This document shows positions 28,463-47,681 of a DNA stretch of 64,000 bases, in pieces (the stretch's first letter is position 1; each line of letters opens with the position of its first letter). Under the pieces are notes generated by a model. It saw nothing but the letters and a program-made list of their open reading frames with translations, ran no database searches and was not told the origin of the DNA. The stretch covers positions 496,001-560,000 of the forward strand of contig NZ_QUNO01000005.1 of assembly GCF_003387475.1 (NCBI RefSeq), read 5' to 3'. The position numbers and the translations under genes are program-made. Source of the stretch: Kutzneria buriramensis. Its GTDB lineage: Bacteria; Actinomycetota; Actinomycetes; Mycobacteriales; Pseudonocardiaceae.

Positions 28463-28750
28463 TCACATGTGGGGAACGTCGTCGGGGATCTCGTAGAACG
28501 TCGGGTGCCGGTACACCTTGTCGCCGCTGGGCGCGAAGAACGGGTCCTTCTCGTCCGGGCTGGACGCGGTGATGTCGGCGGCCTTCACGACCCAGATGCT
28601 GACGCCCTCGTTGCGCCGGGTGTAGAGATCGCGGGCGTGCCGCACGGCCATCTCGTCGTCGGCCGCGTGCAGCGACCCGACGTGCACGTGGTTCAGACCC
28701 CGCTTGCCCCGCACGAAAACCTCGTACAGCGGCCAACTGTTCCTGCTCAT
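28463..28750 (-). CDS. paaB: Phenylacetyl-CoA epoxidase subunit PaaB
   Basis: 95 residues; ATG 28750 overlaps the paaA stop (ATGA). The sequence [22 protein letters not shown] and [24 protein letters not shown] is characteristic of this small subunit, which bridges PaaAC heterodimers. It is followed 10 bp on by paaC. Confidence 0.93.
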
Positions 28751-31694: not shown

Positions 31695-31718
31695 CTCAGC
31701 ACCTCTCGCGACCGAATT

Positions 31719-31740
31719 ACTGACCGTCCGTTCGTTCACA
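31719..31740. promoter_or_regulatory. Candidate PaaR operator between paaZ and paaG-like
   Basis: ACTGACCGTCCGTTCGTTCA lies in the 61-bp gap between the divergent starts. Its complement ends in CGGTCAGT, a half-site that recurs exactly in front of paaJ/paaR at 34603-34610. This fits control by the TetR-type regulator at 34.6 kb. Confidence 0.55.
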
Positions 31741-31755
31741 TGCTAGCGTGCGTGC

Positions 31756-32547: not shown

Positions 32548-32548
32548 G

Positions 32549-33388
32549 TCAGTTCCAGGGGTAGAAGCCCCGCCCGGACTTGCGGCCCAGTTCGCCCCGT
32601 TCCACCTTGTCCCGCAACAGCTTCGGCGGGGCGAACCGGTCGCCGAGCGTGCGCTCCAGGTACTCGGCGATGGCCAGCCGCACGTCCAGGCCGACCAGGT
32701 CGGTCGAGCGCAGCGGGCCCATCGGATGGCCGTAGCCCAGCTCCATGGCCCGGTCGATGGACTCGGCGTCGGTGACGCCCTCCTCCAGCATGCGGATCGC
32801 CTCCAGACCGAGCATCACGCCCAGCCGGCTGGTGGCGAACCCCGGCGAGTCGCGGACCACGACGTCCGCCTTGTCGAGCAGGTGCACCCAGGCCAGCGCC
32901 TTGTCCCGCACAGCGTCCGAGGTGTTCGGGCCCAGCACGATCTCCACCAGCTTCGACACCGGCACCGGGTTGAAGAAGTGCATGCCCAGGAACCGGTCCG
33001 GGTGCACCAGCACCGCGCCCAGCTCGGCGATCGACAGCGAGCTGGTGTTGGTCGCGACCACGGTGTCGGTGGCGACCGCGAGCTCCACCGCCGTGAGCAC
33101 GCGGACCTTCAGCTCCGGGGCCTCCGGGACGGCCTCCACCACCAGGTCAGGGCGCCTGGGCAGGGAGGAGATCTCCGTGACGAAGTCGACCCGCGAGAGC
33201 ACCTGGGTCGGCGTGCCGTCGAGCTTGCCGCGCTCGGCCGCCCGGCGCAGGCCCGTCTCGACCCGCGTCAGGGCCCCCTTGGCGGCGATGGTGTCGCTCT
33301 CCACCACCGTCACCTCGGCGCCCACCGCGGCGAACACCTGCGCGATGCCGGACCCCATCCGGCCGCCACCGATCACACCGACCTGCAC
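32549..33388 (-). CDS. paaH: 3-hydroxyacyl-CoA dehydrogenase PaaH
   Basis: 279 residues from GTG 33388, one base after the paaJ stop. Rossmann motif VGVIGGGRMGSGIAQVFA, catalytic His in GMHFFNPVPVSKLVEIV, and the C-terminal domain ending RKSGRGFYPW. It oxidises 3-hydroxyadipyl-CoA in the final phase of phenylacetate degradation; 3-hydroxybutyryl-CoA is the usual annotation for the family. It is coupled to the thiolase gene. Confidence 0.88.
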   Translation of the reverse strand: MQVGVIGGGRMGSGIAQVFAAVGAEVTVVESDTIAAKGALTRVETGLRRAAERGKLDGTPTQVLSRVDFVTEISSLPRRPDLVVEAVPEAPELKVRVLTAVELAVATDTVVATNTSSLSIAELGAVLVHPDRFLGMHFFNPVPVSKLVEIVLGPNTSDAVRDKALAWVHLLDKADVVVRDSPGFATSRLGVMLGLEAIRMLEEGVTDAESIDRAMELGYGHPMGPLRSTDLVGLDVRLAIAEYLERTLGDRFAPPKLLRDKVERGELGRKSGRGFYPWN

Positions 33389-33389
33389 G

Positions 33390-34556
33390 TCAGACCCTTT
33401 CCACGAGCATTGCCACGCCCTGCCCCACTCCGACGCACAACGTAGCGAGCCCGCGCCGGCCGCGCTCGCGCTCCAGCCGTCCCAGCAGCGTGACCATCAG
33501 CCGCGCGCCCGAGCAGCCCAGCGGGTGGCCGAGCGCGATCGCGCCGCCGTCGGCGTTGACCTTCTCGTCGTCCAGCTTCAGCCGGCGGATCACCGCCAGG
33601 CTCTGCACCGCGAACGCCTCGTTCAGCTCGACGGCGTCCAGGTCGTCGACGCGGAGACCGGTTCGGGCCAACAGCTTCTCCGTCGCCGGCACCGGGCCGA
33701 GACCCATCACGTGCGGGGCGACGCCGGCCGAGGCGCCGGCGATCACCCGGGCGCGGGGCGTGAGGTTGTGGGTTCGCACCGCTTCCTCGCTGGCCAGCAC
33801 GAGCGCCGCCGCGCCGTCCGAGAGCGGCGAGGAGGAGCCGGCCGTGACCACGCCGTCCCTGCGGAACACGGGTTTCAGCGTACTGAGCTTGTCCACAGTG
33901 GTCGACGGCCTGGGGCCCTCGTCGACGGCGAAATCGCCGACGGGGATGATCTCATCGGCGAAGTTGCCGTTCTCGATGGCTTTCAGCGCCCGCCGGTGGC
34001 TGCGGAAGGCGAACGCGTCGCTGTCCTCGCGGCTGATGCCGTCCAGGGCCGCGACCTCCTCGGCCGTCTCCCCCATCGACAGCGTGATCTGCTTGTCGTA
34101 GCGGGGATTGGTGAACCGCCAGCCCAGCGACGTGTCGCTCACCTCGCCCGGGCGCGCCCACGGCGTGCCCGGCTTCGCCATCACCCACGGGGCGCGGGTC
34201 ATCGACTCCACGCCGCCGGCCACGACCACGTCCGCCTCGCCGGCACGGATCGCCTGCGCCGCCGACGCGATCGCCGTCAAACCGCTGGCGCACAGGCGAT
34301 TCACCGTGTAGCCGGGGACGTGCTCGGGCAGTCCCGCCAGCAGGACGGCCATTCTGGCCACGTTGCGGTTGTCCTCGCCGGCCTGGTTCGCCGCGCCGAG
34401 GATCACCTCGTCGATCACGTCCGCCGGGACCTTCGATCGTCCGACGGCTTCGGCCACCGTGAGGGCGGCCAGGTCGTCCGGGCGCTGCGCGGCCAGCGCG
34501 CCGCCGTAACGGCCCTGCGCCGTGCGCACTCCGTCGACCAGGAACACTTCCGGCAT
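33390..34556 (-). CDS. paaJ: Thiolase (beta-ketoadipyl-CoA type) PaaJ
   Basis: 388 residues from ATG 34556. The nucleophile Cys is in [14 protein letters not shown], the His in [13 protein letters not shown] and [16 protein letters not shown], and the second Cys in [12 protein letters not shown]. It cleaves 3-oxoadipyl-CoA and probably 3-oxo-dehydrosuberyl-CoA with CoA. The [15 protein letters not shown] region is typical of PcaF/PaaJ thiolases. It is the first gene of a two-gene operon divergent from the TetR regulator. Confidence 0.9.
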
Positions 34557-35216: not shown

Positions 35217-35268
35217 CCCAATCGGACGTTGCGGCCCTTTTCGCCGCGCCCCCATACTGAACCTCGGA

Positions 35269-35286
35269 AAGTGGTCTATACCACTT
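35269..35286 (+). promoter_or_regulatory. DasR-responsive element before LPMO gene
   Basis: AAGTGGTCTATACCACTT has 7-bp perfect arms AAGTGGT/ACCACTT. It differs from the DasR consensus core AGTGGTCTAGACCACT at one position. It lies 45 bp upstream of the LPMO ATG. DasR is the GntR repressor of chitin/N-acetylglucosamine use, released by phosphorylated aminosugars. Confidence 0.8.
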
Positions 35287-35330
35287 CGGCCGCCGCGCTG
35301 ATTCCCTGCCGACCCCATGGAGGGTTGTTC

Positions 35331-35918
35331 ATGCGCAAGAGGTTCCTGTTACCCCTGTTCGCCGCCGTGGTGGCGCTGCCCGTGCTGTTCGCCGGCACCG
35401 CGCAGGCGCACGGCTACACCACCAACCCGGTCAGCCGGTCGTCGCTGTGCGCCCAGGGCATCGTCAAGAACTGCGGCGACATCCAGTACGAGCCGCAGTC
35501 CGTCGAAGGCCCCAAGAACTTCCCGCAGGCCGGGCCCGCCGACGGCTCGATCTGCGCCGGCGGCATCGCCCGCTTCTCCCAGCTCGACGACCCCCGAGGT
35601 GGCGCCTGGCCCGCCACCAAGCTCACCAGCGGCGCCAACTACACCTTCACCTGGCACTTCACCGCCATCCACGCCACCACCGATTTCCGGTACTTCGTCA
35701 CCCGCGACGGCTGGGACCCCACCAAGCCGCTCACCCGGGCCCAGCTCGACCCCACGCCGTTCCTCGTGTCCAACTGGGGCGGCAAGAGGCCAAGCGGTGA
35801 CGTCTCCATTCCCGGCAAGCTGCCCGCCGGCAAGACCGGGCGGCATCTGATCCTCGGTGTCTGGGACATCGCCGACACCGGCAACGCCTTCTACTCCTGC
35901 GCCGACGTCACCTTCTGA
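35331..35918 (+). CDS. Secreted lytic polysaccharide monooxygenase, AA10 family
   Basis: 195 residues; ATG 35331 follows GGAGGG. The signal peptide ends TAQA and cleavage exposes an N-terminal His (HGYTTNPVSRSSLC), the first ligand of the copper 'histidine brace'; the second is in the TWHFTAIHATTDFRYF segment. Further family landmarks are KNCGDIQYEPQSVEGPK and YSCADVTF. There is no carbohydrate-binding module. It oxidatively cleaves crystalline chitin or cellulose outside the cell; the DasR-type site upstream favours chitin. Confidence 0.93.
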   Translation: MRKRFLLPLFAAVVALPVLFAGTAQAHGYTTNPVSRSSLCAQGIVKNCGDIQYEPQSVEGPKNFPQAGPADGSICAGGIARFSQLDDPRGGAWPATKLTSGANYTFTWHFTAIHATTDFRYFVTRDGWDPTKPLTRAQLDPTPFLVSNWGGKRPSGDVSIPGKLPAGKTGRHLILGVWDIADTGNAFYSCADVTF

Positions 35919-36476: not shown

Positions 36477-37970
36477 TCAGGCCGTGCCGGTGAGGATTTT
36501 CATGGCGGCGTTGTGGCCGGGGATGCCGCTGACGCCGCCGCCGCGTTGGGCGCCGGCGCCGCAGAGGAGGATGCGGGGGTGGGCGGTCTCGACGCCCCAC
36601 GAGCCGGGGGCGTCGTCGGAGTAGGGCCAGGAGAGGTCCCGGTGGAAGATGTGGCCGCCGGGGAGGCCGATGGATTCCTCCAGGTCGACGGGGGTTTTGG
36701 CCTCGATGCAGGGGCGGCCGTCGGGGTCGAGCCAGAGGCAGTCCTGGATGGGCTCGGCGAGAACCTGGTTGAGGGAGGCCAAGGTGGCGTCGAGGGCCCG
36801 GGCACGGGCGGTGTCGTTGTCGGCGGTGAAGAGCCGGGCGGGCATGTGGAGGCCGAACAGGGTGAGGGTGTGGGCGCCGGGCTCCCGCACGATGGAGGGG
36901 TCGGTGAGCGAGTGGCAGTAGATCTCGCACGGGGGCAGCGAGGGGATCTGGCCGGCGGAGGCTTCGGAAAAGGCCTGGGCCAGTTGGGAAAAGCTCTCGT
37001 TGACGTGAAAGGTGCCGCCGAAGGCGTCATGGGGGTCGACGGTGGTGTCCCGGAGGCGGGGTAGGCGGCGGAGGATCATGTTGACCTTGAGCTGAGCGCC
37101 TTCGGCGGGATCGGGGGTCTCGCCGAGCAGCCGGGAGAGCTCGGCGGGTGAGGCGTTGACGAGCACGTGGTCGGCGTGCGCCACATGGGAGGTTTCCCCT
37201 GCCAGGTAACGGACTTCGCCGTCGGGAGTGATGGACGTGACGGTGGCGCCGGTCAGGATCTGGGCGCCGGCGGAGCGGGCGGCGTCCTCCAGGGCGGCGG
37301 TGACGGAGCCCATGCCGCCGACAGGGACATCCCAGTCTCCGGTGCCGTTTCCGATGACGTGGTAAAGGAAACAGCGGTTCTGGAGAAGGGAGGGATCGTC
37401 GGCGCCGGCGAAGGTGCCGATGAGGGCGTCGGTGAGGACAACGCCGCGAACGGTGTCGTCACGGAAGGTGCGCTCGATGACGTGCCCGATGGGTTCCTCG
37501 AACAACACACGCCAGGCTTCGTCGTCGTTGACGGCCGAGCGAAGGGATGCCCTGCCGGGCAACGGTTCCGTGAGGGTGGGAAACACCCTTTCAGCGACCC
37601 GACCGGTCATGGCGTAGAAGCGTTGCCAGGCGGCGAAGTCGGCTGGATCCACAAAGGACGAAGCGGTGCGCGAAGGGTCCTCGGTGTCGACGAGCAGGCC
37701 ACGGTCGCCGACGGGCGTGTAGGAGGACATCCGCCGACGGAGCAGGGTGATCGGCAGACCGAGGTCGGAGATCACCTTGCGCGGCAACAGGCTCACGAGG
37801 TACGAGTAGCGCGACAGCCGGACATCGACGCCGGGGAAGGCCTGGAACGACACGGCGGCACCGCCGACGGAATCGAGACGTTCCAGCACGAGCACGGTCT
37901 TGCCGGCCCGAGCCAGGTATGCCGCGGCCACCAGGCCGTTGTGCCCACCACCGACGATGACGACGTCCAC
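36477..37970 (-). CDS. FAD-dependent oxidoreductase, phytoene-dehydrogenase-like
   Basis: 497 residues; GTG 37970 has AGGAG 7 nt upstream. N-terminal dinucleotide motif VVIVGGGHNGLVAAAYLARAG followed by VLVLERLDSVGGAAVS places it in the COG1233 amine-oxidase/phytoene-dehydrogenase superfamily; the C-terminal FAD motif is RILLCGAGAQRGGGVSGIPGHNAA. It starts 10 bp after the decarboxylase stop, as third gene of a ligase-decarboxylase-oxidoreductase operon. It may oxidise an amine or amide made by the first two enzymes. Carotenoid genes are absent, so a pigment role is unlikely. Confidence 0.8.
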   Translation of the reverse strand: MDVVIVGGGHNGLVAAAYLARAGKTVLVLERLDSVGGAAVSFQAFPGVDVRLSRYSYLVSLLPRKVISDLGLPITLLRRRMSSYTPVGDRGLLVDTEDPSRTASSFVDPADFAAWQRFYAMTGRVAERVFPTLTEPLPGRASLRSAVNDDEAWRVLFEEPIGHVIERTFRDDTVRGVVLTDALIGTFAGADDPSLLQNRCFLYHVIGNGTGDWDVPVGGMGSVTAALEDAARSAGAQILTGATVTSITPDGEVRYLAGETSHVAHADHVLVNASPAELSRLLGETPDPAEGAQLKVNMILRRLPRLRDTTVDPHDAFGGTFHVNESFSQLAQAFSEASAGQIPSLPPCEIYCHSLTDPSIVREPGAHTLTLFGLHMPARLFTADNDTARARALDATLASLNQVLAEPIQDCLWLDPDGRPCIEAKTPVDLEESIGLPGGHIFHRDLSWPYSDDAPGSWGVETAHPRILLCGAGAQRGGGVSGIPGHNAAMKILTGTA

Positions 37971-37980
37971 CCAACGGCTC

Positions 37981-39342
37981 CTATCCTGCCAACGAGACAA
38001 CCCTGTCGTGCAGCCTGTCCAGATAGTCCTCGGACTCGGGCTTCATCAGCACACTGCGCAGCACCCGGGCCCCGTCGACATCGGCGACGGCGGCGATGCC
38101 GCGTGCGCCGAAAGCCTCGGCACCGGCACGAAGGGTGCTGAGGAACACCGGATCGTCCCTGTCGCCCATGCCTTCTCGCATCATGCGCTCGGACCCGGCG
38201 TCGATCGCGGACAGCGTGGGCTCGGCCGGGAAATAGGTGACGATGTCCAGCTCGGGCCGCTGGTACGGCACGAGCCGATCGGACTGGTCGATCAACTCGT
38301 GCCAACGGACGGCGGCCCGACGGCCGGCCGCCAGCACGGCGCCGAGACCGTCGGCGCGCAAAGGCAGCAGCTTGAGGGTCAGCCACAGCGCCGCGGCACC
38401 GGCGCCGGCGCGCGAGCACTCCAGGCTGATCTCGCCGAGGTGCAGCTCGTCGGAAGTGAAGTACGTGTACGGCGAATCGTGGACGTAGAAGCGGCCGACG
38501 GCGGGGTCGGCGAACAGGACGGCACCGCAGCCATACGGCTGGAGGCCGTGCTTGTGGGGATCGACCACAATGGAGTCGCAGTGCCGGATCGCCTGCCACG
38601 GCACGGGGTCGATACCCTCGGTGCCGGCGATCAGGCTGAAGAACCCGCCATAGGCGGCATCGACGTGAATACGGAAGTCGTACCGGGACCGCAGCGCCAC
38701 GACCTCGTGCACCGGATCGACCACGCCGAGGCCGGTGGTGCCGGCGGTGACGACAACGGTGCCGACCTTTCCACTACGCAGCAACGACTCCAGGGCGTCA
38801 AGATCCATCTTGCCGGTGGCGTCGACCGGCACGGCATGACCGGCGACGCCGATCAGCTTGCACATCCGGGAGTGCGTGTAGTGACTGTCCACACTGTACG
38901 CGACGCCGCTATCGGGATGGATTTCCCTTGCCACGTAGAGTGCTTCGAGGTTGGCGATGGTGCCGCTGGACGTCAGGTGGCCGAGGTGGTCGCCGTAGCC
39001 GAACATGGTGGCCAGCTGCGCCACGACCTCCCGTTCCATCTTCGCAGTGGCGGGACCGCCGTCCAGGGCGTGATTGTTGGGATTGATCAGCATCGCCGCG
39101 GCGTAGCCGGCGATCGCCACCGGATGCGGCGGCTTGAGCATCTGACCGGCGTAGCGGGGATGGAAGAACGGGTAGTTGTCGCGCAACCGGTCCGCGAGCT
39201 CGTCGAGCGCCGCAGCGACCTCGCTGTCCTTGAGCGCCAACGAATCGTGCCGGGTGAACTCGCCGAACTCGGCGGCCCACGACTCGTGGTTGGCCAGCAC
39301 GCGGTCCAGCCAGGGCCGCAGCTGCTCAGATGTGGTAGGCAT
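37981..39342 (-). CDS. PLP-dependent group II amino acid decarboxylase
   Basis: 453 residues from ATG 39342, overlapping the ligase gene by 17 bp. Fold-type I motifs: SSGTIANLEALYVAR (PLP phosphate site), HVDAAYGGFF (Asp to the pyridine N), and DPHKHGLQPYGCGAVLF with the Schiff-base Lys. The family includes aromatic amino acid, glutamate and tyrosine decarboxylases (NHALDGGPATAKMEREVV resembles the aromatic group). It should release an amine, which the coupled glutamine-synthetase-like ligase could then take. Substrate is not shown by the sequence. Confidence 0.85.
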   Translation of the reverse strand: MPTTSEQLRPWLDRVLANHESWAAEFGEFTRHDSLALKDSEVAAALDELADRLRDNYPFFHPRYAGQMLKPPHPVAIAGYAAAMLINPNNHALDGGPATAKMEREVVAQLATMFGYGDHLGHLTSSGTIANLEALYVAREIHPDSGVAYSVDSHYTHSRMCKLIGVAGHAVPVDATGKMDLDALESLLRSGKVGTVVVTAGTTGLGVVDPVHEVVALRSRYDFRIHVDAAYGGFFSLIAGTEGIDPVPWQAIRHCDSIVVDPHKHGLQPYGCGAVLFADPAVGRFYVHDSPYTYFTSDELHLGEISLECSRAGAGAAALWLTLKLLPLRADGLGAVLAAGRRAAVRWHELIDQSDRLVPYQRPELDIVTYFPAEPTLSAIDAGSERMMREGMGDRDDPVFLSTLRAGAEAFGARGIAAVADVDGARVLRSVLMKPESEDYLDRLHDRVVSLAG

Positions 39343-40642
39343 ACTCGCGGAACTCCCAATCCGTCACCCACTGCTCGAACCGGGCGACCTCGGCCCGCTT
39401 GAGCACGCTGAACGAGCTGACGAAGTCCTTGCCCAGCAAGGATTGCAGCGCCGAGTCGTCGTCCAGCGCGTCGAGCGCGGCGGTCAGGGACATCGGCAGC
39501 ACGGCGGTGCGGTCGGCGTTGTAGCCGTACCCCTCGAGCGGCGCGGGGGGTTCGAGCCCGTCCTCGATGCCGAGCCGCATCGCGGCCAGCACGCCGGCGT
39601 GCACCAGGTACGGGTTGGCGGACGCGTCGGGCAGCCGCACCTCGATCCGGGTGCCGACGCCGCGGTCGGGCGGCACGCGGACCATCGCGCTGCGGTTGTC
39701 CAGGCCCCAGTCGATCAGCCACGGCGCGAGCGTGTCCGGCCCGAAACGCTTGTAGGAGTTGATGGTCGGGTTGGTCAGGGCGGTCAGCGCGGGCGCGTGC
39801 CGCAACACGCCGGCCAGCGCGTGCCGGAGCAGCGGACTCATGCCGTACTCGCCGGCGTCGTCGGCACCGAGGTTCTCGCCGGCGGCGTCCACCAGCGAGA
39901 CGTGCACGTGGAAGCCGGACGCGCCGTGCTCGTTGAACGGCTTGGCCATGAAGGTGGCGAGCTTGCCCTCGCGCCGGGCCAGGTCCTTGACGGCGGCCTT
40001 GAAGCGGAACGCCCGGTCGGCGGAGTCGAGCGCGCCGGAGTAGTCGAGGTTGATCTCGAACTGCCCGGGGCAGTACTCGTGGTTGCCGCCGAGCACGCCG
40101 AGCCCGAGGTCGCGCAGGTTGCGGACGGTGGCGATCAGGTGGCGGTCGGGGTCGCCGCGGGTGCCGCTGACGTAGATGTTGCCGGGTTCCGGGGAATACG
40201 GGGCAAATCCGGCCCCGTCCGGCACGCACAGGTAGTACTCCAGCTCGGGCCCGACCAGCGGGCGCAGGCCCGATTCGGCGAGCCCGGCGACGACGCGGCC
40301 GAGCACCGCCCGCGGCGACTCGCCGCCGTCGCGCTGGTCGCCGATGCAGGTGGCCACGCCGGGTTCCCACGGCACCACCGCGAGCGTGTCCAGATCCGGC
40401 ACGATCTCCATGTCCGGCAGGCCCGCGTCGAGCCCGCCGGGCACCGGCACGGTCTCGCCGAGCGGGCTGGTGTGGTAGACGGCGCGGCAGAAGGCGACGC
40501 CCCGTTCGACGGCGGCGGGCAGCTGCTCCACGAGCAGCTCCTTGGAGCGCTCGGTGCCCATCAGGTCCGGGAAGGCGACCCGGACCACGTCCACGCCCTT
40601 GGCGGTCAGTTCGGCCACCACGCGGTCGGCCTGCGCTGCCAT
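39326..40642 (-). CDS. Glutamine synthetase-like gamma-glutamyl-amine ligase
   Basis: 438 residues from ATG 40642 (AGGTGG upstream). GS fold: ELEYYLCVPDG (metal Glu), HEYCPGQFEINLDY, ASGFHVHVSL (ATP/metal loop), TNPTINSYKRFGP, and SAMVRVPPDRGVGTRIEVRLPDASANPYL. The adenylylation-site region of housekeeping GlnA is not evident, and the gene heads an operon with a decarboxylase and a flavin oxidoreductase. This fits the PuuA/GlnA3-type ligases that add glutamate to amines. A decayed puuC-like gene nearby supports a gamma-glutamylation route. Substrate is inferred only. Confidence 0.8.
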   Translation of the reverse strand: MAAQADRVVAELTAKGVDVVRVAFPDLMGTERSKELLVEQLPAAVERGVAFCRAVYHTSPLGETVPVPGGLDAGLPDMEIVPDLDTLAVVPWEPGVATCIGDQRDGGESPRAVLGRVVAGLAESGLRPLVGPELEYYLCVPDGAGFAPYSPEPGNIYVSGTRGDPDRHLIATVRNLRDLGLGVLGGNHEYCPGQFEINLDYSGALDSADRAFRFKAAVKDLARREGKLATFMAKPFNEHGASGFHVHVSLVDAAGENLGADDAGEYGMSPLLRHALAGVLRHAPALTALTNPTINSYKRFGPDTLAPWLIDWGLDNRSAMVRVPPDRGVGTRIEVRLPDASANPYLVHAGVLAAMRLGIEDGLEPPAPLEGYGYNADRTAVLPMSLTAALDALDDDSALQSLLGKDFVSSFSVLKRAEVARFEQWVTDWEFREYAYHI

Positions 40643-40703
40643 CCTCCACCTTCCCTCGTTTGCTTCCGAACCATAGCGCCGTGACAGGTCGGCAACAAGA
40701 GCG

Positions 40704-40723
40704 ATATCGTACGTATCCAAACG
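40704..40723. promoter_or_regulatory. Shared 20-bp operator, copy A (ligase operon / ADC gene)
   Basis: On the minus strand the site reads CGTTTGGATACGTACGATAT. It matches 17 of 20 bases of the element at 44433-44452. It sits in the 100-bp gap between divergent starts, 20 bp from the ADC-like gene and about 60 bp from the ligase start, where it can control both. Confidence 0.7.
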
Positions 40724-40742
40724 ACCACCCGGGAGGCGGCAC

Positions 40743-41519
40743 GTGAAGGGCTTTCTGCATCCGCGCACACCCACCGGCCGGGCGTCCGTGACCGCCGGCC
40801 CGCCGTGGCACTACGCCGGCGACCTGATCACCGTCGAGTACCGCACGGATCCGGCCAAGGTCGCCGCGCTGCTGCCGGAACCGCTCGCGCCGGCCGCGGA
40901 GGATCCCGGTGCGGTGGCGCTGATCTGGGCCGACTGGCAGGCCTGTTCGGACGGCGGCGAGGAGCTGCTGGACCCGGTTCGCTCGCAGTACAGGGAATGT
41001 TTCGTCGTCGTGCGCTGCCGGTTCGCCGGCCGGACGTACTCGCGGTGCGTGTTCATCTGGGTGGACAAGGACTTCTCGCTGGCTCGCGGGATCCACCAGG
41101 GCTATCCGAAGAAGATCGGGTCGATCCACCAGACCCGGCCGCATCCGTACGGGCCGGCGCCGCGGATCGAGGCCGGCGCGCGGTTCGGCGCGACCCTCGC
41201 GGCCGGCGACCGGCGGCTCGCCGAGGCGGTCATCGAGCTCACCGAACCCAGTCCGCACAACGGTTTCGTCAACGCGCACCCGATGGCGCACCACCGGCGG
41301 CAGCCGAACATCGAACCCGGCAAGCCGGACAGCTACTCGGAGCTGGTGGAGTCCGGGGCGGCGGCGTTCGAGGGCGGGCCGGCCTGGGCCGCGCGGGCCG
41401 AGCTGCGGCTGTTCGAGTCGCCGACCGAGGAACTCGCGGACCTGACTGTGGAGGAGCACATCGGGGCGTACTACCGGCAGGTCGGCGTGACCTGGAACGG
41501 TGGCACCGTGCTGGCCTGA
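40743..41519 (+). CDS. Acetoacetate-decarboxylase-superfamily protein
   Basis: 258 residues; GTG 40743 follows GGGAGG. The ADC fold is recognisable from PPWHYAGDLITVEYRTDPAKVAALLP, VRCRFAGRTYSRCVFIWVD and ARGIHQGYPKKIGSIHQTR; the lysine pair of YPKKIG is the site of the Schiff-base Lys in true acetoacetate decarboxylase. Many superfamily members act as other decarboxylases, hydrolases or aldolases. It diverges from the ligase operon and shares its operator, so it probably handles an intermediate of the same route. The exact reaction is unknown. Confidence 0.8.
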   Translation: MKGFLHPRTPTGRASVTAGPPWHYAGDLITVEYRTDPAKVAALLPEPLAPAAEDPGAVALIWADWQACSDGGEELLDPVRSQYRECFVVVRCRFAGRTYSRCVFIWVDKDFSLARGIHQGYPKKIGSIHQTRPHPYGPAPRIEAGARFGATLAAGDRRLAEAVIELTEPSPHNGFVNAHPMAHHRRQPNIEPGKPDSYSELVESGAAAFEGGPAWAARAELRLFESPTEELADLTVEEHIGAYYRQVGVTWNGGTVLA

Positions 41520-41520
41520 G

Positions 41521-41895
41521 TCACTCCTGGACCAGGCAGAACGGATGGCCGGCGGGATCGGCGAAGACGCGCCAGTTCCGCCGGTCGTTCCCGGCGTCGA
41601 GCAGGGCGCCGCCGAGCCTGAGGACCTCGGCCTGGGCCTCGTCCAGGTCCGTGACGCCGAGGTCGAGGTGGAACTGCTGCGGACGCGAGGGATCCAGCCA
41701 GGTCGGCGGCTGGTGATCCTCGGCGAGCTGGAAGGCCAGCACGAGCCCGTCGACGTGCAGCGTGGCCCAGCGATCGTCGAGCGCCCACCGGGGGTCGGGC
41801 TGGTTCACGACGCCGCCGAGAAGTGCCTGGTAGAAGCCGGACAGGGCGACGATGTCGGGGCAGTCCAGCACGACGCATTGCAGCTTGGCGATCAC
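41521..41895 (-). CDS. VOC-family (glyoxalase/bleomycin-resistance-like) protein
   Basis: 124 residues; GTG 41895 overlaps the TetR stop (GTGA) and has GGTGGGG upstream. One VOC domain with paired beta-alpha-beta-beta-beta modules: LQCVVLDCPDIVALSGFYQALLG and FHLDLGVTDLDEAQAEVLRLGG, ending VFADPAGHPFCLVQE. The His and Glu positions of a metal site are present (QFHLDLG, LVQE). Role not known; cotranscribed with the TetR gene. Confidence 0.8.
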   Translation of the reverse strand: MIAKLQCVVLDCPDIVALSGFYQALLGGVVNQPDPRWALDDRWATLHVDGLVLAFQLAEDHQPPTWLDPSRPQQFHLDLGVTDLDEAQAEVLRLGGALLDAGNDRRNWRVFADPAGHPFCLVQE

Positions 41896-42530
41896 GACGC
41901 CCCACCGTAGCGGAGCCCGTCGACGAGCAGGGCGAGCAGCCGGTCGGCGGTCTCGGGGGCGTCCTGGGCGGCCCAGGCGATGGCGCCGACCATGCGCAAC
42001 ACGTCCGCGTCGTCGGCGACGGCGGTGATCGCGCCGGCTTCGCGGGCCCTGGCCAGCAGGTCGGCCCCCACGGCGAACATCTCGGCGTGCCAACCGGCGA
42101 CGAGGTCGTGGGAGAGGGCGGAGTTCATCACGGCGGCCGCCAGGCCGCGGTAGGTCAGGCCGTGAACGACGGCGGCGCGCAGCCAGACGGTGAGGGCGTC
42201 GAGAGGGGCGGGGTCGGGAGAGTCCGCGTGGCGAGAGTCGGCATCACCAGAGCCGGTACCGCGAGAGTCGACATCGAGCGGGCCGGCATCGGCGAGTAGC
42301 CGACGGCCGAGTTCCACCAGTTCCTCGATCTGCCCGGCGAGCACCGTCTCGATGAGGTCGAGGCGGGTGGGGAAATGCCGGTACAGCGTGCCGCTGGCCA
42401 CGCCCGCCCGCCGGGCGATCTCGTCCAGCGAGGCGTCCGCGCCGAACTCCGCGAACGCGATGCGGGCCTGTTCGAGCAGCTGCTCGTAGTTGCGCCGGGC
42501 GTCGGCGCGCATCGGACGGGCCTTGTCCAC
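41892..42530 (-). CDS. TetR-family regulator
   Basis: 212 residues from GTG 42530 (GGGAG upstream). HTH: ARIAFAEFGADASLDEIARRAGVASGTLYRHFPTRLDLIETV. The ligand domain carries an unusual Ser/Asp/Gly-rich loop (DVDSRGTGSGDADSRHADS) near residues 85-108. It is cotranscribed with a VOC gene and divergent from a double SnoaL gene; a GGTCC-AACC-GGACC palindrome lies between. Confidence 0.85.
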   Translation of the reverse strand: MDKARPMRADARRNYEQLLEQARIAFAEFGADASLDEIARRAGVASGTLYRHFPTRLDLIETVLAGQIEELVELGRRLLADAGPLDVDSRGTGSGDADSRHADSPDPAPLDALTVWLRAAVVHGLTYRGLAAAVMNSALSHDLVAGWHAEMFAVGADLLARAREAGAITAVADDADVLRMVGAIAWAAQDAPETADRLLALLVDGLRYGGAS

Positions 42531-42569
42531 TCGCGGGCTCCCTTGCTAACCGGGGACACAGTCCGTTAC

Positions 42570-42583
42570 GGTCCAACCGGACC
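42570..42583. promoter_or_regulatory. Candidate TetR operator GGTCCAACCGGACC
   Basis: Inverted repeat GGTCC/GGACC with a 4-bp spacer, 40 bp from the TetR start and 26 bp from the SnoaL ATG. It differs from the 20-bp element shared by the ligase and hpa-type operons, so those are probably under another regulator. Confidence 0.55.
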
Positions 42584-42608
42584 ATGTCTCACCTTAACGG
42601 GGGCTCCC

Positions 42609-43418
42609 ATGGCGCTGACGGCACAGGACCGGATCGACATCACCGACCTGATCAACCTGCACGGCCACCTCGTGGACGGGGGCGCGTGGAACCGCGTGGA
42701 AGACGTCTTTCGCGCGGACGTGGCGTATGACCTGGAGGACTTCGGGCTCGGCACGCTGCACGGCGTGGCGGCCATCAGGGAGGCGGCGCTGGCACTGGGT
42801 GAGGCGAACCCGGTCGGGCATCACGTGACCAACATCGTGATCACCGAGGGCGGGGAGAACGAAGTCCGGGTCCGATCGAAGGGAATCGGCATCAGCGCGG
42901 CGGGCACGGCCGGCAGCGTCGAGTACGACGACATCGTCGCCCAGACGCCCGAGGGCTGGCGGATCCGCTACCGCAAGGTGACCGCAAGGCGCAGAACAGG
43001 GGACCAGCCCGGGCCGCGAGAGGTGCTGGAACGCTGGCGACAGGCGGCGATCGACCACTCCCTCGCCAACCTCACCACGTTGTATGCAGTCGACGGAATC
43101 CACGAGTTCCCGTTCACGGCTCCCGGCCTCCCCGCCAAGCTCGAGGGCCGAGCCCAGATCACGGCCTGGATGACCGAAGCCTGGCGCGCCCCCTTCCGGT
43201 ACCACCGGTTCCGCACGCTCGCCGTCCACGACACGGGTGACCCGAACACGATCGTCGTGGAGCAGGAAGCGCTGGGCACCAGCGAGATCACCGGCGACTT
43301 CACGCTGCCGAACCTGCTGGTGCTGACCACCCGCGACGGGCAGATCGCCCACCTCAAGGACTACGTCGACATCGCGGCAGCCGTCGCCGTCACGGGAGAG
43401 AGATCCACGTGGTCTTGA
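42609..43418 (+). CDS. Tandem SnoaL/NTF2-like protein
   Basis: 269 residues from ATG 42609. Two cone-shaped NTF2-like domains are fused: the first (about 1-130; DRIDITDLINLHGHLVDGGAWNRVEDVF) resembles SnoaL_4 polyketide-cyclase/hydroxylating dehydratase-like proteins; the second (about 138-265; VLERWRQAAIDHSLANLTTLYA, LPAKLEGRAQITAWM) resembles SnoaL. Single-domain members are usual, so the fusion is uncommon. Function is open; the 3' end overlaps the puuC pseudogene by 29 bp. Confidence 0.75.
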   Translation: MALTAQDRIDITDLINLHGHLVDGGAWNRVEDVFRADVAYDLEDFGLGTLHGVAAIREAALALGEANPVGHHVTNIVITEGGENEVRVRSKGIGISAAGTAGSVEYDDIVAQTPEGWRIRYRKVTARRRTGDQPGPREVLERWRQAAIDHSLANLTTLYAVDGIHEFPFTAPGLPAKLEGRAQITAWMTEAWRAPFRYHRFRTLAVHDTGDPNTIVVEQEALGTSEITGDFTLPNLLVLTTRDGQIAHLKDYVDIAAAVAVTGERSTWS

Positions 43419-44445
43419 GGTCGGTGAACTTGTCCGACGCATGGGCGGACTTGTCACGGCCGTGGCCGGACAACTTGGTGCCACTGAAGGGAACCACCAT
43501 GTCCCCCTCCTCGTAGCAGTTGACCCACACACAGCGCGGCACGGTCGAGCACGCACGTCACGAATTCGTCGGCGATGGCCCGGTGCACCAACAACCTCGA
43601 CGCCGCAGTGCACATCTCCCCGGAGTCGAAGAAGATCCCCCACGCCGCCGTGTCGGCTGCGGCGTCAAGATCGGGGGCGTCGGCGAAGACGATGTTCGGC
43701 GACTTGCCGCCGAGCTCCAGTCACACCCGTTTGAGGTTGGAATCCGCCGAGTACCGCAGGACCTCCCGGCCGACCTCCGTCGACCCGGTGAAGGTGACGA
43801 CATCGACGCCGGTGCAGCCCGAGGGCGCCGCCGGTCGCCGGGCCGGGACCGTTCACGACGGTGAGCACGCCCGCCGGCAATCCCGCCTTCGCTGCGAGTT
43901 CCGCAAGTAAAAGCGCCGATAGCGGCGACTGCTCGGCTGGCTTCAACACCACCGTTCGGCCGGCGATCAGCGCCGGCGCGAGCTTCCACGCGGCCATCGT
44001 CAGCGGGAAGTTCCGCGGCGACCACGCCGACCGGCTCGCGGGTGACCATCGCGAGGGTGTCCACGGTCGATGTGGTGACCTCGCCCGCGACCTTGTCCGC
44101 CAGCTCGGCGTACCAGCGGAAGGTGCGAGCCACCGCCGGCACCTCGATGCCGAGCGAGTCGCGAATCGGCTTGCCCATCTCCGGCGAGATGGTGCGGGCC
44201 AGCCGATCCCTGTCGGCGTCGATGAGATCGGCGAGCCGGTGCAGGACGTCGACCCGCTCACGGGCCGGCAGCCGCGGCCACGGCCCGTCGTCGAAGGCCT
44301 GCCGCGCGGCGGAGACCGCTCGGTCTACCTCGGCGGGGCCGGCCTCATCGACATCGGAACCTTGCCGTCCCGGGGTGAACGCACCTGCACGGCGCCCTCC
44401 AAACGCCTTGACCGGCCCGACCGAGCCAAGTACGTTTGGATGCAA
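43390..44445 (-). pseudogene. Decayed PuuC-type aldehyde dehydrogenase
   Basis: Pieces of one protein lie in several frames. One frame gives [23 protein letters not shown] through [11 protein letters not shown]; the next gives [17 protein letters not shown] and [18 protein letters not shown]; a third gives [20 protein letters not shown] and [19 protein letters not shown] at 43721-43723 replaces the Trp of 'KRVWLELGG'. About 120 residues are deleted between RAIADEFV and [13 protein letters not shown], and the end ([14 protein letters not shown]-like KFTDLKTTW) is PuuC-like. The family oxidises gamma-glutamyl-aminobutyraldehyde. Multiple lesions make it non-functional. Confidence 0.85.
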
Positions 44446-44452
44446 ACGATAT
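44433..44452. promoter_or_regulatory. Shared 20-bp operator, copy B (hpa-type operon)
   Basis: CGTTTGGATGCAAACGATAT, with internal arms GTTTG/CAAAC, lies 12 bp before the hpaE-type ATG and at the old start of the puuC pseudogene. It matches copy A at 17 of 20 bases. It presumably ties the hpa-type operon to the ligase operon. Confidence 0.7.
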
Positions 44453-44464
44453 TACGGAGACACG

Positions 44465-45898
44465 ATGTCCGACCACTGGATCGGGGGCAGGCGGGTCACC
44501 TCGCCCATCCGCTTCGACGACATCTCCCCCATCGACGGCTCCGTCCTGGCCCACGTCTCGCGGGCCTGTCCGGAGGAGGTCGACCTCGCGGTCGACACCG
44601 CCGAGAAGGCGTTCACGCACTGGCGGCGCACCACCCGCGAGCGCCGCGCGGAGCTACTGCACAAGATCGCCGACGGGGTGGAGAAGCGCCTCGACGAGCT
44701 GGCCGCCGTCGAGACGTCCGACAACGGCGCGCTGCTGCGCTCGCACCTGCGCGGCGTGATGCCGCGCGTGGCGCACAACTTCCGGTTCTTCGCGGACTGG
44801 CTCGTCGACGAGGTGTGCCACCCCGACTTCGACACCCGCGGCCACACCAACCGCGTCAGCTGGGACCCGGCCGGTGTCTGCGCGCTGATCACACCGTGGA
44901 ACGCGCCGCTGATGCTGGCCAGCTGGAAGATCGCGCCGGCGCTGGCCGCAGGCGACACCGTGGTGCTCAAACCGGCCGAGTGGACGCCGCTGACCGCGAC
45001 CCTGCTGGCCGAGATCACCGCCGAGGCGGGCCTGCCCGACGGCGTCTTCAACGTGGTGCAAGGCCACGGCGAGAACACCGGCCAGCACCTGGTGAACAAC
45101 CCGAGACTGCGCCGGATCAGCTTCACCGGCTCGGTGCCGACGGGCAAGGCCATCGCGCGGGCCGCGGCCGCCAACCTGGTGCCGACCTCGCTGGAACTGG
45201 GCGGCAAGTCGCCGCTGATCGTGTTCGCCGACGCGGACCTCGACCTGGCCGTGAAGCTGGCCGTCGAGCAGTACGACAACGCCGGGCAGGTGTGTCTGGC
45301 CGGCGTTCGCCTGCTGGTCGAGGAGTCCGTCGCCGCCGAGTTCCTCGCCGGCTTCCTGACCAGGGCGGACGCCCTCAAGCAGGGCGATCCGCGCGATCCC
45401 GCCACGGACGTCGGCCCGCTGATCCACCGCCGCCAGTTGGACCGCGTGGACGGCTTCGTGCGGCGGGCGGTGGCCGACGGGGCGCGAGTGCTGCTCGGCG
45501 GCGGCCCGAACACCGAGCTCGGCGGCCTCTACTATCGGCCGACGCTGCTCACGGATGTCCGACCGGGCAGCGAAATCCTCACCGAGGAGGTGTTCGGCCC
45601 GGTGCTGACGCTGCAGACCTTCCGGCGCGAGGAGGACGCCGTCGCGATGGCCAACGACACCCGCTTCGGGCTGGCCGCGACGCTGGTCACCGGCGACGAG
45701 GACCGCGCGAGGCGGGTCACCGAGCAGCTGGTGGCCGGCACGGTCTGGGTGAACTGCTTCTTCGTACGGGATCTGCGCGCGCCGTTCGGCGGCAGCCGGG
45801 AGTCCGGGATCGGCCGCGAGGGCGGCAACTGGAGCTTCGACTTCTATTGCGACGTCAAGAACACGGTCACGGCGGGACAGGGGTGGCGGCATGGGTGA
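44465..45898 (+). CDS. hpaE: 5-carboxymethyl-2-hydroxymuconate semialdehyde dehydrogenase, HpaE-like
   Basis: 477 residues; ATG 44465 has GGAG 5 nt upstream. Aldehyde dehydrogenase motifs: ITPWNAPLMLASWKIAPALAAG (cofactor), [27 protein letters not shown] (general base Glu) and QVCLAGVRLLV with the catalytic Cys. The C-terminus FGGSRESGIGREGGNWSFDFY is typical of hydroxymuconic/HpcC semialdehyde dehydrogenases. It would oxidise the ring-cleavage product of the next gene. First gene of a three-gene overlapping operon. Confidence 0.82.
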   Translation: MSDHWIGGRRVTSPIRFDDISPIDGSVLAHVSRACPEEVDLAVDTAEKAFTHWRRTTRERRAELLHKIADGVEKRLDELAAVETSDNGALLRSHLRGVMPRVAHNFRFFADWLVDEVCHPDFDTRGHTNRVSWDPAGVCALITPWNAPLMLASWKIAPALAAGDTVVLKPAEWTPLTATLLAEITAEAGLPDGVFNVVQGHGENTGQHLVNNPRLRRISFTGSVPTGKAIARAAAANLVPTSLELGGKSPLIVFADADLDLAVKLAVEQYDNAGQVCLAGVRLLVEESVAAEFLAGFLTRADALKQGDPRDPATDVGPLIHRRQLDRVDGFVRRAVADGARVLLGGGPNTELGGLYYRPTLLTDVRPGSEILTEEVFGPVLTLQTFRREEDAVAMANDTRFGLAATLVTGDEDRARRVTEQLVAGTVWVNCFFVRDLRAPFGGSRESGIGREGGNWSFDFYCDVKNTVTAGQGWRHG

Positions 45899-46766
45899 GG
45901 TCGTCGGCGCGGGCCTGCTCTCCCACGTGCCGACGATCATGCTGCCGGCGGCCGAGCGCCGGGAGCTCAACGACGGCAGGGACACCACACTCGTCGCCGG
46001 GCTGGAGCGGTTGCGCGCGGAGGTGTTCGAGCGGCTCGACTACGACACGGTGGTGGTGCTCGACTCGCACTGGGCGACCACTGTGGAGTTCGTGGTCACC
46101 GCGCACCAGCGGCGGGCCGGGCTGTTCACGTCCGAGGAGCTGCCGCGCGGGATGTGCCGCATCCCGTACGACTTCGCGGGCGATCCCGAACTCGCGCACG
46201 CCGTCGCGGCGCACGGCGAGAAGCAGGGCACGTGGATCACCCCGATCGACGACCAGTACCTGCCGATCTACTACGCCACCGTGAATCTGTGGCAGTACCT
46301 GGGGGTTCCGGGCAAGCGGTGGGTGTCCATCGGCGTCTGCCAGACCGCCGACCGCGAGGACAACCTGCGGCTCGGGCGGGCGCTGGCCGCCGGAATCGCC
46401 GACACGGACCGGAAAGTGCTGCTGGTCGCGTCGGGAGCGCTCAGCCACACCTTCTGGCCGCTGCGGGAACTCCGCAAGCACGAGGCCGCCGGCGTCGAGC
46501 ACATCCGCACCCCGGAGGCGGCGCAGGCGGACCTGGAGCGCATCGAATGGCTCCGGCGGGGCGATCACGCACGGGTCCTCGACACCATGCCGGAGTTCGC
46601 GAAGTTCAAACCGGAGGCCGGTTTCGGGCACTACCTGATGATGGCCGGCGCCCTCGGCGAGCGGGCGTGGCGGGCGCCGGGACGCCTCTACAGCGAGTAC
46701 GAGAACGCGGTCGGCACCGGCCAGGTGCACATCTGGTTCGACCGCCCGGGCGAGGGGTGGACGTGA
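45891..46766 (+). CDS. hpaD: Homoprotocatechuate 2,3-dioxygenase, LigB type (HpaD/HpcB-like)
   Basis: 291 residues; ATG 45891 overlaps the hpaE stop. Class III extradiol features: GLLSHVPTIML (metal His), VVVLDSHWATTVEF (second His), VASGALSHTFW, and the end GTGQVHIWF, all as in enterobacterial HpaD. It is expected to cleave 3,4-dihydroxyphenylacetate next to the hydroxyls with non-haem iron. Flanking HpaE- and HpaG-like genes support this substrate over catechol. Confidence 0.85.
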   Translation: MGEVVGAGLLSHVPTIMLPAAERRELNDGRDTTLVAGLERLRAEVFERLDYDTVVVLDSHWATTVEFVVTAHQRRAGLFTSEELPRGMCRIPYDFAGDPELAHAVAAHGEKQGTWITPIDDQYLPIYYATVNLWQYLGVPGKRWVSIGVCQTADREDNLRLGRALAAGIADTDRKVLLVASGALSHTFWPLRELRKHEAAGVEHIRTPEAAQADLERIEWLRRGDHARVLDTMPEFAKFKPEAGFGHYLMMAGALGERAWRAPGRLYSEYENAVGTGQVHIWFDRPGEGWT

Positions 46767-47608
46767 CCGAGCACCGCAGGATCCTGTTGGACGGGGCCGT
46801 TGTCGAGGTGGTGCGCCGCGAGGAGCTGCTCGTCGCCGGGGACGGCCGCAGCGTCAAGGCGGACGAGGCGGTGCACCTGCCGCCCTGCGAGCCGTCCAAG
46901 ATCATCGCGGTGCATCTGAACCACCGCAGCCGGGTGGAGGAGTTCCAGGCCCGGCTGCCGGCCGCGCCGACCTACTTCCACAAGCCGACCTCCGCGCTGA
47001 ACGCGCACGGCGGGGCGGTGGTGCGGCCCGAGGGCTGCAAGTGGCTGAACTACGAGGGCGAGGTCGCCATCGTGATCGGGCGGACCTGCCGCAACATCTC
47101 CCCCGCCGACGCCGCTGCCCACATCCGCGGGTACACCGTCGCCAACGACTACGGCCTGCACGACTTCCGCGACACCGACGCCGGCTCGATGCTGCGAGTG
47201 AAGGGCTCGGACACGTTGTGCCCCTTGGGTCCCGGGCTCGTCACCGACTGGGACTTCCGCGGCAAGGCGCTGATCACGAGGGTGAACGGGGAGGTCGCGC
47301 AGCACGGCAGCACCGACGAGATGGAGTGGGACATGCACTATCTCGTCGCCGACATCGCCCGAACGATCACGCTGTTCCCGGGCGACGTGCTGCTGTCCGG
47401 GACGCCGGCTCATTCGCGGCCGGTGCGGCCGGGCGACGTGGTGGAGGTCGAGGTCGAGGGCCTCGGCGTGCTGCGCAACCACATCGTCAGCGGACCGACC
47501 GCGATCCGGACGGACGTGGGCGCGCAGCCGACGGAGTCCGAGGAGGTGCTGTCGACGGCACTCGGCGGCGACTGGGAGTTCCGGGGCATCCGCCCGCCCC
47601 GCCGCTGA
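46763..47608 (+). CDS. hpaG: FAH-family isomerase/decarboxylase, HpaG-like
   Basis: 281 residues; GTG 46763 overlaps the hpaD stop (GTGA). FAH fold: NYEGEVAIVIGRTCRNI (metal Glu), YTVANDYGLHDFR, KGSDTLCPLGPGLV, TLFPGDVLLSGTPAHSRPVRPGDVVEVEVEGLG. HpaG decarboxylates and isomerises the oxidised ring-cleavage acid; HpaH/HpaI-type later enzymes are not in this window. It ends before a very strong terminator. Confidence 0.82.
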   Translation: MTEHRRILLDGAVVEVVRREELLVAGDGRSVKADEAVHLPPCEPSKIIAVHLNHRSRVEEFQARLPAAPTYFHKPTSALNAHGGAVVRPEGCKWLNYEGEVAIVIGRTCRNISPADAAAHIRGYTVANDYGLHDFRDTDAGSMLRVKGSDTLCPLGPGLVTDWDFRGKALITRVNGEVAQHGSTDEMEWDMHYLVADIARTITLFPGDVLLSGTPAHSRPVRPGDVVEVEVEGLGVLRNHIVSGPTAIRTDVGAQPTESEEVLSTALGGDWEFRGIRPPRR

Positions 47609-47620: not shown

Positions 47621-47681
47621 TCATGCAGGGAAGGACGCCTTACCCTCGTTCAACGCGGGTAAGGCGTCCTTCCCTGCATGA
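47621..47681. terminator. Perfect 25-bp-arm hairpin terminator
   Basis: Left arm TCATGCAGGGAAGGACGCC... (47621-47645) and right arm 47657-47681 are perfectly complementary over 25 bp around an 11-nt loop TCGTTCAACGC. It lies between the convergent hpa-type operon and a MarR gene and can end both. Its inner part resembles the hairpin at 58866-58908, a recurrent terminator type in this lineage. Confidence 0.9.

Follow-up and report, generated by a model that had tools for sequence, protein, structure and literature searches.

Why a glutamine synthetase-like ligase is encoded beside an aromatic ring-cleavage operon, and whether the two serve one pathway, is the question raised by a locus of Kutzneria buriramensis (contig NZ_QUNO01000005.1). 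The locus lies in a 64-kb stretch, called here the window, and its coordinates follow the numbering of the window. One operon encodes the glutamine synthetase-like (GS-like) ligase, an amino-acid decarboxylase and a flavin adenine dinucleotide (FAD)-dependent oxidoreductase, and the neighbouring operon is of the HpaE-HpaD-HpaG type. We consider it probable that the locus represents, in partly decayed form, a widespread module for the catabolism of a catechol-ethylamine, most likely dopamine, by the route proposed below. The route itself, by which a dopamine-type amine would be converted to pyruvate and gamma-aminobutyric acid (GABA) with a gamma-glutamyl cap kept through extradiol cleavage and PuuC and PuuD finishing, has in our estimate slightly better than even chances of being a widespread and undescribed pathway. 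What the sequences show is a linked and co-occurring gene set, conserved catalytic residues and, in some of the loci, a shared upstream motif.

Features of the locus

The features are as follows (coordinates, strand, description).

36477-38000, minus strand: FAD-dependent oxidoreductase (CrtI / flavin amine-oxidase superfamily); Pfam Amino_oxidase 51 bits, best NCBIfam model CrtO 81 of 1000
37981-39342, minus strand: group II pyridoxal phosphate-dependent amino-acid decarboxylase; Pfam Pyridoxal_deC 80 bits, NCBIfam tyrosine decarboxylase 139 of 905
39326-40642, minus strand: GS-like ligase (putative gamma-glutamyl-amine ligase); Pfam Gln-synt_C 321 bits, type III GS 282 of 470
40704-40723, plus strand: 20-bp element resembling an operator, in the spacer of the divergently oriented GS and ADC genes
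40743-41519, plus strand: acetoacetate decarboxylase (ADC)-fold enzyme, MppR-like; Pfam ADC 192 bits, NCBIfam MppR 185 of 380
43402-44358, minus strand: relic of a PuuC-type aldehyde dehydrogenase; four matching pieces in three frames
44433-44452, minus strand: operator-like 20-bp element ahead of hpaE, with palindrome arms CGTTTG....CAAACG
44465-45898, plus strand: HpaE-like semialdehyde dehydrogenase; NCBIfam HpaE 516 of 638
45891-46766, plus strand: HpaD-like class III extradiol dioxygenase (LigB); NCBIfam HpaD_Fe 130 of 316, Pfam LigB 82 bits
46763-47608, plus strand: HpaG-C-like FAA-fold decarboxylase/isomerase; NCBIfam HpaG-C 199 of 276, Pfam FAA_hydrolase 187 bits
47688-48257, minus strand: MarR-family regulator; Pfam MarR 41 bits, cut-off 24.6

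An earlier sequence-only reading of this DNA had described the GS, decarboxylase and FAD genes as an overlapping operon, and they were found as such on the minus strand from 40642 to 36477, with overlaps of 17 and 20 bp. The start of the GS-like gene at 40642 is the likely one, the longest open reading frame extending to 40774. The ADC-fold gene and the hpaE-hpaD-hpaG-type operon, whose frames overlap on the plus strand, were borne out as well, with the qualification that the Hpa scores lie below cut-off. The frames of the FAD, decarboxylase, GS, ADC, HpaE and HpaD genes are backed by third-position GC; the HpaG-like frame is not among the third-position-GC picks and is based on its Pfam and NCBIfam matches. 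The scores for HpaE, HpaD, HpaG-C, type III GS and tyrosine decarboxylase are all below the NCBIfam equivalog cut-offs, and from their sequences the proteins appear to be enzymes of these kinds, yet their substrates need not be the same.

Proposed pathway

In the pathway that we infer, with regard to the substrate, the order of steps and all of the chemistry, tyrosine or 3,4-dihydroxyphenylalanine (DOPA) would be decarboxylated, or in other species the amine would be imported by an APC permease, and the GS-like ligase would add glutamate to the amine. A cytochrome P450 (P450) would supply or uncover a ring hydroxyl in many relatives; in the genus of the window the substrate may already be a catechol (DOPA, dopamine), or another enzyme may hydroxylate it. 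The HpaD-like enzyme would then cleave the ring (proximal extradiol) with the gamma-glutamyl side chain retained, the HpaE-like enzyme would oxidise the aldehyde and the HpaG-like enzyme would decarboxylate the product. Acting as a hydratase-aldolase, the ADC-fold enzyme would split the 2-oxo-enoate into pyruvate and gamma-glutamyl-4-aminobutanal (OHC-CH2-CH2-CH2-NH-gamma-Glu), which PuuC would convert to gamma-glutamyl-GABA and PuuD to GABA and glutamate.

The order of steps in the sequence-only reading was different, the protected amine being oxidised to an arylacetate ahead of ring cleavage. PuuB makes gamma-glutamyl-aminobutyraldehyde from the second amine of putrescine. Once dopamine or tyramine has been glutamylated, the product is an amide that has no other amine, and therefore an oxidation of the PuuB/PuuC type has no substrate before ring cleavage; the earlier order and its arylacetate intermediate were given up on this ground, and they would also leave the ADC-fold enzyme without a role. 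By deduction, the predicted aldol product is exactly the substrate of PuuC. PuuC acts on gamma-glutamyl-aminobutyraldehyde and PuuD on gamma-glutamyl-GABA (PMC10606097), and the known Hpa chemistry comprises extradiol cleavage, aldehyde oxidation, decarboxylation, hydration and retro-aldol cleavage (PMC12718150). Ring cleavage of the capped amine would account for the GS, ADC, PuuC and PuuD genes sharing one cluster, for the absence of HpaF, HpaH and HpaI beside HpaD and for the sub-threshold Hpa scores, and an amine oxidase would not be needed.

Evidence from the enzymes

In glutamine synthetases the flap glutamate belongs to the ammonia site. In the GS-like enzymes this glutamate (E327 equivalent) is replaced by Leu or Met in 43 of 45 orthologs and the remaining catalytic columns are conserved in 44-45 of the 45. 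Because the flap glutamate is replaced and the other columns are kept, the enzyme is read as a putative amine ligase. The column matching Asp50 was ambiguous in the alignment, with mixed letters, and was not used for any claim. For the decarboxylase, the best curated model is tyrosine decarboxylase and the best PDB matches are the decarboxylases 5hsi and 6ebn.

The ADC-fold enzyme matches PDB entries 6eej/4zbo (171 bits), which we take to be Sbi00515, and 4jm3 (MppR, 157 bits); Sbi00515 and Swit_4259 are said to be aldolase-dehydratases. The lysine of the QGxPK motif forms a Schiff base in enzymes of this fold. This residue, Lys123 in QGYPKK, is conserved in 40/40 orthologs and also in 6eej and MppR. 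MppR reportedly condenses pyruvate with an aldehyde, and the ADC-superfamily proteins Sso1221/Sso1222 have been proposed as terminal aldolases in the phenol meta-cleavage of S. solfataricus (PMC7820114).

The metal and acid-base residues of the HpaD-like enzyme (His12, His60, His186 and Glu242) are kept in 45/45 sequences. When four canonical HpaDs were compared, their constant Lys9 and His153 were replaced in 45/45 of the cluster proteins, and for His68 and His246 this was so in at least 43; these residues are defined by constancy in the four canonical sequences and not by nearness to the substrate in a structure. HpaF, HpaH and HpaI were found in none of the 48 loci with HpaD, which were searched with E. 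coli, Ruegeria or Klebsiella queries (for HpaI the Klebsiella gene only), the search being confined to the loci except for CHMI. No match to CHMI isomerase was obtained in the 22 HpaD genomes by a search that matched no control genome either. HpaB (PF11794) had no match in the genome of the window in a search that did give matches in 6 of 14 control genomes. Filing the operon as the canonical homoprotocatechuate pathway was rejected on the sub-cut-off Hpa scores, the lack of HpaB, the changed HpaD residues and the failure to find HpaF, HpaH and HpaI.

A PuuB-like core role was considered for the FAD oxidoreductase and rejected, its homologs being present in 130 of the 297 family genomes (20 of 46 genera) and its linkage having been seen in one genus only. 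The gene occurs in 6 of the 48 HpaD loci, all from the genus of the window, and had no match in the other clusters viewed. It is the sole candidate for a PuuB-type oxidase in the clusters, PuuB itself not having been searched for. The ligase-decarboxylase-oxidoreductase trio, proposed earlier as the pattern to be sought in relatives, was seen in this genus only; the FAD oxidoreductase is probably not core to the pathway and its role, if any, would be local.

Distribution of the module

The family survey covered 297 genomes of 46 genera, and no probability is given for its counts since related genomes are not independent. The decarboxylase was found in 78 genomes (12 genera), the GS-like ligase in 45 (7 genera) and HpaD in 22 (7 genera); GS co-occurs in 22/22 of the HpaD genomes and the seven genera are identical for both. 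Among these 22 genomes, G006 has no HpaD other than a divergent one (56%) in a different setting (L083), and hence 21 genomes of 6 genera carry the real cluster. The class survey gave HpaD in 30 of 394 genomes and 13 of 138 genera, and 20 of the 29 matches outside the own genome were fetched. Stretches of up to 20 kb were taken around the family and class matches and of about 25 kb around four plasmid matches; sampling of the loci was not random, as they were drawn from HpaD, GS or decarboxylase matches.

The 48 HpaD loci include the divergent L083 and L090 (n=46 without them), and L102, L117 and L039 end at contig edges. A gene was counted from 25% query coverage, fragments included, with identity limits of 35% for GS, 60% for FAD and 36-60% for the others. 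On this basis HpaE and HpaG were each present in 45 of the 48 loci, ADC in 41, GS in 38, MarR in 29, P450 in 27, PuuD in 24, PuuC in 20, APC permease in 16, decarboxylase in 10 and FAD in 6. GS was present in 18 of the 20 class-level loci from other families.

A complete cluster is seen in L078, where P450 and GS lie on one strand and ADC, HpaE, HpaD, HpaG, permease, PuuC and PuuD on the opposite one. On plasmid pSLUN1 of Streptomyces lunaelactis, permease, GS, MarR, ADC, PuuD, PuuC, HpaE, HpaD, HpaG and decarboxylase genes occur within 15 kb, with a SpoIIE-type gene inside the cluster; lun33 to lun39 of this cluster are listed as unknown, except the MarR gene, in the lunaemycin paper (PMC9866976). 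The module is also found on named Streptomyces and Embleya plasmids, among them a plasmid of S. canus (L120) whose cluster has a P450, a ferredoxin and an FAD-dependent reductase. A Novosphingobium (sphingomonad) plasmid has GS, P450, ADC, HpaG-type and HpaD genes and two aldehyde dehydrogenases, with no PuuD nearby, and in at least this one record the module crosses phyla. The actinomycetes that carry it include some with genomes of 1.3-1.9 Mb (L101, L117, L118), which is unusual for streamlined genomes. In the metagenome-assembled locus L074, a decarboxylase and an aldehyde dehydrogenase (38% to HpaE) were found and no GS or HpaD match.

Operator-like element

One 20-bp element had been reported at both ends of the region. 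Two copies do exist (40704-40723 and 44433-44452), 17/20 identical, on opposite strands and the sole sites of the window within 4 mismatches; they stand at the 5′ end of either operon instead of at the outer borders of the region. Searched as the palindrome CGTTTG-nATn-CAAACG with up to 2 mismatches, the element gave 47 sites in 61 pathway loci (1.24 Mb), spread over 27 of them, and none in 28 decarboxylase-only loci (0.56 Mb) or in 4 canonical hpa loci. The average over forty permuted palindromes was 2.1 sites (at most 14), and a single shuffled version of the loci contained 1. The count was made with a single pattern derived from the window, and loci of the same genus are closely related. 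Of these sites, 43/47 lie within 350 bp upstream of an hpaE, hpaD, ADC, GS, puuC, puuD, MarR, permease or P450 gene, and in G126 an unlinked P450 (L096) has the operator 59 bp upstream. The MarR-family regulator is a candidate reader of it. The earlier claim that gamma-glutamylation and the Hpa-type operon form one system is upheld by the 22/22 co-occurrence, by the linkage across genera and families and by this common operator.

Over the 12 Mb of the genome to which the window belongs, the pattern CGTTTG-N4-CAAACG was matched at 8 sites when up to 1 mismatch was allowed, as against 3 for the reversed control. They include the site upstream of hpaE in the window and a one-mismatch site about 175 bp upstream of a PuuC-PuuD gene pair on contig C7; the remaining six are near genes without a visible link to the pathway, as judged by eye. 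The GS/ADC intergenic site has 2 mismatches and is hence outside the eight.

PuuC, PuuD and the second copy in the own genome

The PuuC-type relic of the window had been recognised from the sequence alone, and its four pieces, spanning 44358-43402, show one stop and the loss of about residues 335-455. At the equivalent place L034, L035 and L038 have a PuuC match in a single frame without stops (458-489 residues). Adjoining the relic is a further group of genes.

41521-43418, mixed strands: VOC protein (minus), TetR regulator (minus) and double SnoaL protein (plus)

This block is probably an insertion, outside the pathway, at a place where some relatives carry PuuD and PuuC, as if the puu part had been broken by it.

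For three proteins, the second aldehyde dehydrogenase of the clusters has PuuC as its best NCBIfam model (559-578 bits; runner-up model 480-486). The PuuD-type genes (including those of L078, L085 and L088) match Peptidase_C26 with 127-171 bits and PuuD as the best NCBIfam model, and the Cys-His-Glu triad is present in 25/25. The gamma-glutamyl hydrolase had been noted as missing from the window; candidates for it lie outside, PuuD-type genes being found in 24 of the 48 HpaD loci and on contig C7 of the own genome. There (L095:7313-10104) an intact PuuC (496 residues) and PuuD (234 residues) overlap by 4 nucleotides and adjoin an HpaG relic, the PuuD being 71% identical to that of L078. The genome of the window would thus appear, from its gene content, to hold two decayed copies of the module which complement each other. 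G126 is likewise split, with L037 lacking ADC, PuuC and PuuD and L091 having HpaE, HpaD, ADC, PuuC and PuuD without HpaG.

Points of difficulty and competing explanations

Several results weigh against the proposed route and are collected here. At the threshold used, 34 of the 61 loci are without an operator; L075-L080, which are of one genus and include the complete cluster L078, are among them. The PuuC-type scores of 559-578 stand against an equivalog cut-off of 850, and the PuuD-type NCBIfam scores are 63-79 against a cut-off of 266, the genes of L078, L085 and L088 scoring 63-66. Close PuuD orthologs (at least 60%) are present in 10 of the 22 HpaD genomes only, a homolog of 39-48% in 10 and none in 2; both PuuC and PuuD are lacking in 20 of the 48 loci, one or both being present in 28. 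In A. baumannii, decarboxylation requires two HpaG-type subunits and runs fastest with CHMI, being less efficient without it (PMC12718150), whereas one HpaG-type gene was found in 45 of the 48 loci and none in 3; at most one such gene per locus, together with the lack of HpaF, is a gap in the proposal. No P450 was found in the window, and for the putative hydroxylation step the best P450 match in the own genome is 42%. Finally, 23 genomes of genus g8 have GS and no HpaD at the limit used, and in 21 of the 23 the decarboxylase starts less than 3 kb from GS, the two genes being on different contigs in the other two; in the g8 loci viewed (L040-L042) a MarR gene lies between them. Because these genomes hold the decarboxylase-GS pair without HpaD, the first two steps can exist without this type of ring cleavage and a strict coupling is weakened. 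An occurrence of the trio outside an hpa context had been named in the sequence-only reading as speaking against it, and that of the ligase-decarboxylase pair is counted here as contrary evidence.

The alternative which survives best, though we hold it to be unlikely, is the route of the sequence-only reading or a near variant of it, in which glutamylation would serve only for protection or storage and the amine would be freed and oxidised to 3,4-dihydroxyphenylacetate, on which HpaD, HpaE and HpaG would act canonically to give succinate semialdehyde. Tyramine and dopamine are reported to be routed through 3,4-dihydroxyphenylacetate in Pseudomonas putida U (Arcos et al. 2010), and the GAT-like NpaA2/AtdA2 are thought to reverse glutamylation when naphthylamine and aniline are degraded (PMC11335346), but HpaF, HpaH and HpaI are absent from 48/48 loci and both the ADC gene and the PuuC-like second dehydrogenase would stay unexplained. 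Two of the enzymes have HpaE and HpaD as their top NCBIfam models, and for the third HpaG-C ranks second; against this, all of these scores are below cut-off and HpaD has lost basic residues that are constant in the four canonical proteins. The FAD gene of this genus could encode an amine oxidase, yet it was not seen in clusters beyond the genus.

By a hair less likely is that the same logic is applied to another catechol or methoxylated alkylamine, such as 3-methoxytyramine, a dihydroxybenzylamine or a hydroxylated phenethylamine. The P450 would then remove a methyl group or add a hydroxyl, and the end product may be a different omega-amino acid. The gene content varies among clades, and the neighbours of the S. 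canus cluster, where the P450, ferredoxin and FAD-dependent reductase have one-carbon tetrahydrofolate genes adjoining, hint at demethylation, so that some hosts may use a methoxylated amine. The decarboxylase is distant from all of its solved relatives, but its best NCBIfam model is tyrosine decarboxylase, and PuuC and PuuD, the nearest models for the last two enzymes, both act on four-carbon substrates (PMC10606097).

That the decarboxylase-GS pair and the Hpa operon are unrelated and neighbours by chance is very improbable, for although the decarboxylase and GS occur in 78 and 45 of the 297 genomes as against 22 with HpaD, the pair is found without HpaD in 21 g8 genomes and genus g17 has the pair and the HpaD cluster at separate loci, the GS-HpaEDG-ADC linkage recurs in other families and on the sphingomonad plasmid, and the same operator stands ahead of both operons of the window and of unlinked pathway genes.

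Comparison with known systems

Catabolism of a dopamine-type amine under a gamma-glutamyl cap, as preferred here, would share parts with four known systems. With the canonical Hpa/Hpc pathway of E. coli, K. pneumoniae and A. baumannii (PMC12718150) it has in common an hpaE beside hpaD, a LigB dioxygenase with the same metal and acid-base residues, an FAA-type decarboxylase and a MarR-family or HpaR regulator nearby. Unlike that pathway, the cluster has an ADC-fold enzyme and linked GS, PuuC-type and PuuD-type genes, and the matching aldol fragment, which is succinate semialdehyde there, is predicted to be gamma-glutamyl-4-aminobutanal here. The Puu/Pau polyamine pathway (PMC10606097) uses a GS-like ligase, an aldehyde dehydrogenase and a gamma-glutamyl-GABA hydrolase of the PuuA/PuuC/PuuD type, to which the clusters have putative counterparts, but no PuuB-type oxidase is linked across genera in the present clusters, and ring opening followed by the aldol split, rather than oxidation of a second amine, would supply the aldehyde. 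In the Atd/Npa pathways for aniline and 1-naphthylamine (PMC11335346), a GS-like enzyme also glutamylates an aromatic amine ahead of oxygenation; there the amine is lost before ring cleavage, giving a dihydroxy aromatic, whereas here the side-chain amine is proposed to stay glutamylated. The aldolase-type ADC-like enzymes (MppR, 4zbo/6eej, Sso1221/Sso1222) have the same fold family and lysine motif, and the archaeal ones are proposed for meta-cleavage; the difference is that the present enzyme would work in an amine pathway, replacing both HpaH and HpaI.

No description of ring cleavage of a glutamylated arylethylamine was found in the open-licence literature, which was partly covered, and one may be in print elsewhere. 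If the proposed route is true, it would give a new logic for the degradation of aromatic amines, in which one protecting group serves for oxygenation as well as for the later release of GABA and neither an amine oxidase nor an arylacetate is required. It would tie catecholamine catabolism to GABA, offer a substrate for ADC-fold enzymes and re-annotate many genes named HpaD, HpaE, acetoacetate decarboxylase and glutamine synthetase, including the unknowns on the Streptomyces lunaelactis plasmid. It would also be a new way for soil bacteria to feed on aromatic amines, ranging from streptomycetes to small-genome actinomycetes and a sphingomonad plasmid.

Neighbouring genes and minor observations

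Between hpaG and marR a further element was found.

47621-47681: near-perfect palindrome of 61 bp, a genome-wide repeat

It was considered as an operator of the cluster and rejected on account of its copy number, one arm having 143 matches in the genome (72 forward, 71 reverse) as against 0 for the reversed control. The element belongs to a dispersed palindromic repeat family, the arms being often paired 34 bp apart in the places listed.

Directly upstream of the locus a phenylacetate (paa) catabolic cluster occupies 26069-34556 of the window, with PaaZ at 1022 bits, PaaE and PaaC above their cut-offs and a thiolase which is nearest to 3-oxoadipyl-CoA thiolase with a score below cut-off. The part from PaaZ to the thiolase holds its position in 4 of the 6 same-genus loci viewed (L034, L036, L037, L039). 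At 35229-35918 a secreted protein of the GbpA/chitin-binding type is encoded (NCBIfam GbpA, 212 of 481 bits), which may be a lytic polysaccharide monooxygenase.

In the S. canus locus (L120:13841-24882) a second P450, a ferredoxin and an F420-type oxidoreductase are present, with one-carbon tetrahydrofolate genes and an aminomethyltransferase-like gene on the opposite strand. A GH95-type glycoside hydrolase adjoins the GS, MarR and decarboxylase genes of one g8 locus (L040:4662-13156). The divergent HpaDs (53-56%) of L083:7893-10590 and L090:4656-10417 lie, as judged by eye, beside an asparagine-synthetase-like protein; these two loci probably belong to a different pathway, perhaps a biosynthetic one, and L090 also carries a full HpaB (PF11794, 299 bits).

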